Shown here in pieces: positions 4,992 to 11,479 of a DNA stretch of 46,062 bases. The DNA comes from an uncultured Olsenella sp. (GTDB taxonomy: Bacteria; Actinomycetota; Coriobacteriia; Coriobacteriales; Atopobiaceae), in assembly GCA_900314575.1 (NCBI GenBank), contig OMVS01000007.1, positions 1-46,062 of the forward strand. The letters run 5' to 3'. The translations under genes were made by a program, and so were the position numbers. Position 1 is the stretch's first letter, and the number at the start of each line of letters is the position of its first letter. The notes under the pieces were generated by a model, which was given only the letters and a program-made list of their open reading frames with translations, had not been told where the DNA came from and did no database searches.

Positions 4992-5810
4992 CTAGCGGTA
5001 GGTGCCCTCCGGGTCGATCTTCTCCTGCACCTTCTTGAGGGTGCGGCGCAGGAGCCTCGAGACCTGCACCTGCGAGATGCCCAGGCGGTCGGCGATCTCC
5101 ACCTGGGTGAGGCCGTCGATGAAGCGCATCTTGATGACCTCCTGCTCGCGCGGGGAGAAGTCCTTGATGGCGTCCTCCAGCACGATGCGGTCGTCCGAGG
5201 CGGCCAGGTCCTGGTCGACCGTCGCGTAGCGGTCAATCACGGCCGGGGCGTCCTCGTCGTCCGTGCCCCCGCCCTCGAGCGGGACCGAGCTGTAGGCGCT
5301 CGACGACTCCATTGCCTCCAGCACCTCGTCGACGCTCGCCCCGACGTGCTCCGCGATCTCCTCGACCGAGGGCGAGCGCTGAAGCTCGTTGGTCAGCTCG
5401 TCGGTGGCCTGGTTGACCTTCGCGGAGAGCTCCTGGAGCCGGCGCGGGACGCGCACCGACCAGCCCTTGTCGCGGAAGTGGCGCTTGATCTCGCCCATGA
5501 TGGTGGGCGTGGCGTAGGTCGTGAACTCGAGCCCGCGGGAGGGGTCGAAGCGGTCGATGGCCTTGATCAGGCCGATGGTGCCGACCTGGATGAGGTCCTC
5601 GAGGGACTCCCCCCTGTTCTTGAACTTGGATGCGAGGAAGCGCACGAGGTTGAGGTGGTTGACGATGAGCTGCTCGCGCGCCTGCTCGTCGCCCTCCTCC
5701 TTGTAGCGACGGAAGAGCTCGCGGGTGCGGTCCTTGTCCCAGGCCAGCTTGCCGCGCGACCCCCTCCTGAGCTCCCTCCTTGACTGCGGGGCGCTCAGCT
5801 TACTCGGCAT
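4992..5810 (-). CDS. SigB/SigF/SigG-family RNA polymerase sigma factor
   Basis: A 272-aa alternative sigma factor of the stress/sporulation (SigB/F/G) branch, directing RNA polymerase to a special promoter set. Region 2 is clear (NLVRFLASKFKNRGESLEDL, GTIGLIKAIDRFDPSRG, FTTYATPTIMGEIKRHFRD). Region 3 (VNQATDELTNELQRSPSVEEIAEHVG) and region 4 with its helix-turn-helix (SPREQEVIKMRF, then LTQVEIADRLGISQVQVSRLL) follow. The frame is open further upstream, but that part is a shadow of the anti-sigma gene. The ATG at 5810 overlaps the anti-sigma 3' end by 11 nt, the coupling expected of an anti-sigma/sigma pair. Confidence 0.92.
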   Translation of the reverse strand: MPSKLSAPQSRRELRRGSRGKLAWDKDRTRELFRRYKEEGDEQAREQLIVNHLNLVRFLASKFKNRGESLEDLIQVGTIGLIKAIDRFDPSRGLEFTTYATPTIMGEIKRHFRDKGWSVRVPRRLQELSAKVNQATDELTNELQRSPSVEEIAEHVGASVDEVLEAMESSSAYSSVPLEGGGTDDEDAPAVIDRYATVDQDLAASDDRIVLEDAIKDFSPREQEVIKMRFIDGLTQVEIADRLGISQVQVSRLLRRTLKKVQEKIDPEGTYR

Positions 5811-6198
5811 GCGCTGCGTCCAATCTCTTCTCCACGTGCAGGCGCCTCCCGTCGGGCGTGACCTCGAAGGAGTCGCACACGGCGGAGAGCAGGAGCTCGG
5901 CCAGGTCGAGCGACTCCGCCTGGTCCTCGGACTCCTCACAGGAGCCCTCGCCGAGCGAGAAGTCCATGGAGATGCCCTCGCCCGTCAGGGCAAAGGAGAT
6001 GTCGCAGGCCGCGGGGCAGGTGGCGCAGGAGAAGACGAAGCCCTCCTCGGCCGCCATGCGCACGTCCTCCACGTCGTCGACGCTCATCCCGCGCACGACC
6101 GCCAGGTTGGCCGCCATCATGCGCACGGAGCGTGCGAAGCCCGCCTCGGCCGGCAGGGTCAGCCTGACCATCTTGTCCTCTGTGAGCTGCTGTTCCAT
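5800..6198 (-). CDS. RsbW-like anti-sigma factor with degenerate kinase motifs and a Cys cluster
   Basis: This 132-aa protein sits directly before the sigma gene, overlapping it by 11 nt. Its length and pattern (LPAEAGFARSVRMMAANLA, then SVDDVEDVRMAAEEGF, then a C-terminal LHVEKRL strand) match the histidine-kinase-like ATPase fold of RsbW/SpoIIAB. In RsbW the helix continues with an Asn (N-box) that binds Mg-ATP. Here the position reads EEGFVFSCATCPAAC, with no Asn and three cysteines (C58, C61, C65). The usual Gly-rich ATP lid is not recognisable. It may bind its sigma factor without kinase activity, possibly through a metal- or redox-sensitive site; this is inference. No RsbV-like anti-anti-sigma gene is nearby. 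Confidence 0.75.
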   Translation of the reverse strand: MEQQLTEDKMVRLTLPAEAGFARSVRMMAANLAVVRGMSVDDVEDVRMAAEEGFVFSCATCPAACDISFALTGEGISMDFSLGEGSCEESEDQAESLDLAELLLSAVCDSFEVTPDGRRLHVEKRLDAAHAE

Positions 6199-9562: not shown

Positions 9563-11479
9563 CTACGCGCCCTCCCCCGGCTCCCTGGGGCCACGGCTCA
9601 CGAAGGCGGAGAGGGAGGCGTCGAGCACGGAGAAGCCCAGCCTCCTATGGAGCCTCACCGACCCCTTGTTGTAGGGGTAGACCTCCGTCCACGGCACCTG
9701 GCCCGCCGCGAGGAAGGCGTTGGCCTTGGTGGCCTCGAGCGCGGCGCCCCAGCCCGCCTTGCGGTGCCCGGGGAAGACCTCGAGCATGCCGATGGAGCCC
9801 TCCTCGTGCTCGCCCACGAACCCCACGAGCTCCTCCCCCTCGAAGGCGCCGAGGAAGCGGCCGGCCTCGAGGGCGGAGGCGAGCCGCCCCTCGTCGAGGA
9901 AGCGCGCGAAGGAGTAGTGGCGCACCACGTCGCGGGCGAAGGAGGCGTCGAGCAGCCTGATGCCGGACGCGAGCGCGGCGTCCACCGGAATCGGTGCGGA
10001 GCCGTCGTAGGTGACGATGTGGTAGGGCTCGACGAGGTCGAGCCCCAGGACCTCCCGGACCTCGCGCTCCAGCCCCTCGCCGAGGGCGTCGACGAGAGTC
10101 GGCTCGCACAGCTCGCCCATCACGAGGCGCCCAAGCCCGCGGTCGGGCGAGAAGAGCATCTGGTCTCCGTTCTTTGCGCGGACGAGCAGGCAGCCGTCCT
10201 CCGCGAAGAGGACCTCGCCTTCGCCCCTGCGCAGCAGCTCCGCCATGGGGAAGGACTCGGAGCCCGCGCCCTCGAGCAGCGAGAGCGCACGGCGGCGGCG
10301 AAGCTCGGGAGGGAGCCGCGCGAGGTCGTCGGCGCGCATCCTGACGTAGAGGCGGCCGGCGAGCTGCTCGTGGCCGGCCGGCGTCGGGTGGTCCGCGTCT
10401 GCCGCTATGTGCGCGTCGTCGTGCGAGACGAGGCGCTCGCCGTCGGCGACGCGCATCTCGGGGTGCGCGCGGGCAGCGTCGCGGATGATGGAGGGCACCC
10501 GCGCGTAGCAGCTCCCCCGCCGCACGGGCGTCTTGAGCTCGTCGTGCCAGATCGGCGTCAGGACCCAGGTGGGGACCTCCGGCCACTCGCGCGCGACCTC
10601 GGCGAGGTAGGTCTCGACCTCGCGGCGGGTACGCGCCTCGGCGCAGGGCCCGAAGCGGTAGTTGGTGCCGAAGGCGACCACGACGAGCTCGGGAGAGACG
10701 CATCGGCCGAGCCCCGTGCAGGTGCCGTCCTGGAAGACCTGGCCGTAGACGGACTGGTTGACGAGGTCGAGCCCGAGGCGCTGCGCGAGGAGCGCCGGCC
10801 AGGTGCGTGCGGGGTCGTCGGCGAAGAAGCCCTGCGGGATGGAGTCGCCGAGCACCAGGAGGCTCCCCTCCCCCTCCACCGGCTCGATGGCGGACCCGTC
10901 GAGCCAGATCCTCGAGACCTCGCAGCCGCGCAGGCAGGGCAGCCAGACCGTCACCTCGCGGACCCTGCCGAAGCCGGGCAGCGGGACCATGCCCGGGCCG
11001 GGGGCCTCCCCCTCGTCCTCGAGGCGCAGCACGACCAGGGACGCCCCCTCGGAGGCGGGCACGCCGTCGATCCCGGAGGCGAGGGGAGCCGGCAGCACCG
11101 GGTCCACGTGGCGCCCGTCCACGTCGTAGGAGACGCCGTCGTGCGCAAGCCTGCCCGTGCCGGCGTCTATGACGGCGAGCTGGGCGGCGGTGTCGCGTGG
11201 CTCCGGGTCGAGGCGCACCGCGAGCGCGACCTCGGTCGCGTCCGTCCTGAACCTGAGCCGCACGCCCGAGGTGGTCCGCGCCATCCGCCGGTAGGTGCCG
11301 GGGCGCCAGGCCATGCAGCTGCCCAGCATCCGCATCTGGGCGGGGGTGAAGCGCTCGGGGCGCACCCATCCGCCCGCGCCCTGCGTCACGCCGACGCAGC
11401 CGTGCAGGAAGTCGACGGCCGAGGCCTCGAGCAGGGACACGCGGGCGCGCGCGTCGAGCACCATGCGAGCTATGCCCAT
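9563..11479 (-). CDS. SGNH-hydrolase / GNAT acetyltransferase fusion protein
   Basis: A 638-aa two-enzyme protein with no signal peptide. Residues ~20-200 look like the beta-sandwich preceding many SGNH esterases. Residues ~205-385 hold the SGNH hydrolase: block I LVLGDSIPQG with Ser213, block III GTN at 271-273, and the catalytic Asp/His pair in DADHPTPAGH (His364). After a linker domain, residues ~500-630 form a GNAT N-acyltransferase with the acetyl-CoA loop region (MLEVFPGHRKAGWGAALE) and NKGSVRLHRRLGFSV. The hydrolase may deacylate a sugar or similar acyl ester while the GNAT half acylates; substrates are unknown. The start is 3 nt after the solute-binding protein stop, so they share an operon. 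Confidence 0.8.
   Translation of the reverse strand: MGIARMVLDARARVSLLEASAVDFLHGCVGVTQGAGGWVRPERFTPAQMRMLGSCMAWRPGTYRRMARTTSGVRLRFRTDATEVALAVRLDPEPRDTAAQLAVIDAGTGRLAHDGVSYDVDGRHVDPVLPAPLASGIDGVPASEGASLVVLRLEDEGEAPGPGMVPLPGFGRVREVTVWLPCLRGCEVSRIWLDGSAIEPVEGEGSLLVLGDSIPQGFFADDPARTWPALLAQRLGLDLVNQSVYGQVFQDGTCTGLGRCVSPELVVVAFGTNYRFGPCAEARTRREVETYLAEVAREWPEVPTWVLTPIWHDELKTPVRRGSCYARVPSIIRDAARAHPEMRVADGERLVSHDDAHIAADADHPTPAGHEQLAGRLYVRMRADDLARLPPELRRRRALSLLEGAGSESFPMAELLRRGEGEVLFAEDGCLLVRAKNGDQMLFSPDRGLGRLVMGELCEPTLVDALGEGLEREVREVLGLDLVEPYHIVTYDGSAPIPVDAALASGIRLLDASFARDVVRHYSFARFLDEGRLASALEAGRFLGAFEGEELVGFVGEHEEGSIGMLEVFPGHRKAGWGAALEATKANAFLAAGQVPWTEVYPYNKGSVRLHRRLGFSVLDASLSAFVSRGPREPGEGA

Follow-up and report, generated by a model that had tools for sequence, protein, structure and literature searches.

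A degenerate RsbW-type anti-sigma factor of Coriobacteriia, probably part of a split partner switch

Introduction

The anti-sigma factors RsbW and SpoIIAB of Bacillus subtilis double as serine kinases and carry the N, G1 and G2 motifs; their genes stand in the order anti-sigma then sigma. A crystal structure of RsbV with RsbW identifies Arg23, Asp42, Lys44/Ser48, Glu49 and Tyr118 of RsbW as the residues that bind RsbV, with R23, D42, K44 and E49 forming hydrogen bonds (PMC7340262). The mycobacterial anti-SigF protein UsfX/RsbW1 (Rv3287c, MSMEG_1803) shares the RsbW fold, is missing the N-box Asn and is encoded directly upstream of sigF, with its RsbV-type STAS protein encoded elsewhere. Mycobacterium smegmatis RsbW1 binds SigF and does not phosphorylate RsfB, the kinase being a separate protein, RsbW2 (PMC7693655), which stands alone next to rsfB. 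In Mycobacterium tuberculosis Rv1364c (PAS-PP2C-kinase-STAS), sensor, phosphatase, kinase and STAS domain are linked in one polypeptide. A different family, the zinc anti-sigma factors (ZAS), is recognized by the motif H-x3-C-x2-C. A literature search on SigB and its anti-sigma factor in Coriobacteriia found no direct study.

Here we analyse a sigma-linked gene from an uncultured Olsenella sp. in a 46,062-nt stretch of DNA (contig OMVS01000007.1, positions 1–46,062; hereafter the window). An earlier note, made from the sequence of the window, had proposed that its product replaces partner switching with a cysteine-based sensor. We find that the locus resembles the mycobacterial arrangement, and that its product most likely holds a stress sigma factor inactive.

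Results

A conserved gene overlapping a SigB/F-type sigma factor gene

The gene and its neighbours are arranged on the minus strand as follows.

4992–5810, minus strand: SigB/SigF/SigG-family sigma factor (TIGR02980), presumed target
5800–6198, minus strand: degenerate RsbW/UsfX-type anti-sigma factor, 132 aa
6202–6777, minus strand: DUF948-like protein (PF06103), ending 3 nt before the anti-sigma start codon
6841–8211, minus strand: rarA/mgsA AAA+ ATPase (MgsA_C, 202 bits), a neighbour conserved by synteny

The anti-sigma stop codon TAA (5802–5800) and the sigma start codon ATG (5810–5808) lie in an 11-nt stretch shared by the two genes, and the sigma gene matches the SigBFG model TIGR02980 at 287 bits (cut-off 234), bearing out the proposed overlap with a SigB/F-type sigma gene. 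The DUF948-like protein scores 35.8 bits against PF06103, just below the cut-off of 37.2. Because the anti-sigma gene is carried by 43 of 60 relatives, and because most of those inspected keep the order rarA, DUF948, anti-sigma, sigma, we regard it as a real gene; it adjoins a SigB/F-type sigma gene at the loci inspected in both class and phylum. A SigB/SigF consensus promoter (GTTT-N12-18-GGGTA) was not found in the window, and PADLOC gave no match to the anti-sigma factor.

Elsewhere in the window, the product of positions 9563–11479 (minus strand) combines two domains, a GDSL lipase and a GNAT acetyltransferase. The relative G027 carries a 1,874-bp anti-sigma/sigma stretch in two copies of 100% identity (locus L047, 1017–2890 and 3242–5115), either a recent duplication or an assembly artefact.

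Across the class, the anti-sigma profile matches 146 of 197 genomes, usually as a single copy of its family, and a SigBFG sigma factor scores above cut-off in 144 of 197. Comparing the genome lists for anti-sigma, sigma and STAS by eye, without a script, we found anti-sigma and sigma to disagree in four genomes (G167, G145, G184 and G186), where a gene lies at a contig end or the sigma gene is truncated, and at least one STAS match in all 146 anti-sigma genomes and in 24 of the other 51. One genome of the same family (G173) shows neither the anti-sigma gene nor a SigBFG sigma factor above cut-off, but has five STAS matches.

An RsbW fold stripped of its kinase motifs

Searching the PDB with the single anti-sigma sequence returned chance matches only, so a profile was needed; the family profile retrieved RsbW (E 1.5e-6) and, weakly, UsfX (E 0.08). 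Pfam HATPase_c_2 scored 14.4 bits, under its cut-off of 27.4. The AlphaFold (AF2) model, built from 42 homologues (mean pLDDT 90.5), is predicted to have the RsbW/SpoIIAB (GHKL-type anti-sigma) fold. Its top structural matches are RsbW (6m36/6m37; for 6m37_A, Z 16.5, RMSD 1.8 over 107 residues), SpoIIAB (1l0o/1til/1th8; for 1l0o, Z 15.3) and M. tuberculosis UsfX (8ih8, Z 15.0; 8jzt, Z 13.1).

The alignment to RsbW (6m36) locates the former ATP-binding helix.

6019–6048, minus strand: helix at the former N-box, residues 51–60 (EEGFVFSCAT)

RsbW residues are numbered here as we take them to be, in keeping with the residue types named in the RsbV–RsbW structure described above. In this region window residue n+3 corresponds to RsbW residue n, which aligns the N-box Asn53 of RsbW with F56, whereas E52 is kept. 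The F56 column holds Tyr or Phe in 74/83 Coriobacteriia homologues, and none of the 83 has Asn anywhere at positions 53–60. Nor are the G1 and G2 glycine motifs seen in the window protein, which therefore differs from the B. subtilis kinases in being without all three. A regular expression for the glycine lid matched five homologues including the window protein, in whose model the matched residues form a beta hairpin. The earlier note's reading that the ATP-binding motifs had been lost holds. The N-box is also lost in 15 homologues sampled elsewhere in the phylum, each encoded immediately before a sigma gene; one locus (L152) is a possible exception, since it has an Asn one column off the N-box position, possibly a remnant. 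The proposal of a non-kinase anti-sigma factor is well supported by N-box loss in 83/83 Coriobacteriia homologues and in the sampled other Actinomycetota, and the window protein is probably not a kinase.

A retained surface for an RsbV-type partner

Judged by alignment, the counterparts of R23, D42, K44 and E49, with which RsbW binds RsbV, are invariant or nearly so in this family. R26 (83/83), D45 (80/83) and E52 (83/83) align with the RsbW docking set, as does R47, the counterpart of RsbW K44, which is Arg in 78/83 and Lys in four more. At two further contacts the correspondence differs: RsbW Ser48 is replaced by E51, and for RsbW Tyr118 no confident alignment was obtained.

A gene for an RsbV-type partner is absent from the window, as the note had observed; the two STAS genes of the genome lie on other contigs, C89 and C98. 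One encodes a solo STAS protein (locus L118, 3918–4232) with the serine in a DSTG motif and sits upstream of tatA and tatC. The other belongs to a gene pair on C98 (locus L117), in which a PAS-GAF-SpoIIE (PP2C) phosphatase gene is followed by a STAS-HATPase_c_2 fusion whose N, G1 and G2 motifs are intact (EAMGNAVDH, DCGAG and GRGIKLM). Each of the two arrangements is also found in other families of the class, and genome G137 has a STAS gene immediately preceding an anti-sigma gene. Solo STAS genes beside tatA and tatC were seen in several families (L118, 2348–4232; also L123, L128 and L131). At the L152 locus, a STAS-like open reading frame overlaps the sigma gene on the opposite strand. That partner switching had been replaced, as proposed, does not fit a genome that encodes STAS, STAS-kinase and PP2C proteins together with an anti-sigma factor that has kept its docking residues.

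Cysteines that vary across the family

The 132-aa translation does contain the cysteines noted earlier at positions 58, 61 and 65, and two not mentioned then, at 87 and 108. Their occurrence among the 83 homologues, where listed, is as follows.

6025–6027, minus strand: Cys58, Cys in 59/83, otherwise mostly Ser, Ala or Val
6016–6018, minus strand: Cys61, Cys in 3/83 (the window protein, L081 and L106)
6004–6006, minus strand: Cys65, Cys in 26/83, otherwise mostly Val, Leu or Ile
5875–5877, minus strand: Cys108, Cys in 69/83, otherwise Ser, Thr, Ala or Pro; the best conserved cysteine

Among the 83 homologues, the triad of Cys58, Cys61 and Cys65 is confined to the window species. Cys61 occurs in 1 of the 43 closer homologues; all 26 carriers of Cys65 belong to this closer set, with none among the 40 more distant sequences, and 26/83 have Cys58 and Cys65 together. 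Co-variation of C58 with C108, as would be expected of a disulfide, was not detected in the 83 homologues (Fisher p=1). The sampled homologues elsewhere in the phylum lack the cysteines at 58, 61 and 65, even though they have lost the N-box. This pattern of substitution suggests that the cysteines mostly occupy small or hydrophobic packing positions, and are not metal ligands or a sensor.

Discussion

The window protein shares with UsfX/RsbW1 the RsbW fold, the missing N-box, the position beside the sigma gene, a STAS protein encoded elsewhere in the genome and, as far as M. smegmatis is concerned, a separate kinase, at about 15% sequence identity. Likeness to B. subtilis RsbW and SpoIIAB extends to the fold (Z 15–16.5), the gene order and the contacts R23, D42, K44 and E49. 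We consider it highly likely that the locus forms a split partner switch like that of M. smegmatis RsbW1, RsbW2 and RsfB, in which the sigma factor is released from a kinase-less anti-sigma factor by a STAS protein acting in trans. The anti-sigma factor would bind and silence the SigB/F-type sigma factor of the overlapping downstream gene, until an unphosphorylated STAS protein docks on its conserved face and displaces the sigma factor. That STAS partner may be the solo protein encoded beside tatA–tatC, the STAS domain within the STAS-kinase fusion, or both. The kinase role would have moved to the separate HATPase_c_2 domain, fused to STAS, where M. smegmatis has a free-standing RsbW2; the PAS-GAF-PP2C phosphatase encoded just upstream of the fusion would dephosphorylate the STAS protein in response to a signal. 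The phosphatase and fusion genes on C98 are comparable to Rv1364c, divided here between two genes. As the STAS partner and the kinase are unlinked to the sigma locus, their pairing with it rests on co-occurrence and analogy, and the fusion protein may instead act on a different output.

The presence of all three cysteines in the window species, the frequency of C58 and the 26 homologues with both C58 and C65 could speak for the switch first proposed, in which Cys58, Cys61 and Cys65 bind a metal or Fe–S cluster or form a thiol switch, and the anti-sigma factor thereby senses directly, without RsbV. The alignment across Coriobacteriia, named beforehand as its test, goes against it: invariant cysteine ligands, the hallmark of such a switch, were not found, and C-x2-C-x3-C does not characterize the family. 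C61 is rare, C58 gives way to Ala, Val or Ser and C65 to Val, Leu or Ile, C58 and C108 vary independently, and homologues across the phylum share the N-box loss without these cysteines. The presence of STAS genes in all genomes of the class that have the anti-sigma gene, together with the retained docking residues, further makes direct sensing very improbable. The C-x2-C of the window species recalls ZAS proteins, but the position of the ZAS His is Phe54 here (Phe in 82/83, Tyr in one, His in none), and the CxxC is not conserved. There is an equally small chance that, within the host order, where C58 and C65 co-occur in 26/83 homologues, these two residues supplement partner switching with a redox or metal input.

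A residual role for nucleotide is somewhat less improbable, though still unlikely: despite its lost motifs the protein might bind nucleotide, with ATP or ADP modulating sigma binding, or retain weak kinase activity. The invariant E52 aligns with the position at which RsbW touches the phosphorylated serine of RsbV; and UsfX reportedly binds and hydrolyses nucleotide, going by the title of a 2008 study by Malik cited in PMC10950880, so that on the strength of that title a missing N-box, which UsfX shares, is no proof against nucleotide binding. Set against this, the Asn and the G1/G2 glycines are absent, another gene of the genome encodes an intact kinase domain, and M. smegmatis RsbW1 did not act as a kinase on RsfB (PMC7693655). 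Least probable of all is that the protein is an antagonist of an anti-sigma factor, as is M. smegmatis RsbW3, the partner of RsbW1, which is likewise without kinase activity (PMC7693655); the window gene family lies directly upstream of sigma at the inspected loci of class and phylum, and is usually the only copy in its genome.

The split partner switch would thus extend to Coriobacteriia the mycobacterial arrangement in which anti-sigma factor and kinase are separate proteins, and it names likely in-trans partners for the Coriobacteriia sigma factor. The homologues sampled point to a widespread, and perhaps ancient, loss of the kinase site among the sigma-linked anti-sigma factors of Actinomycetota.
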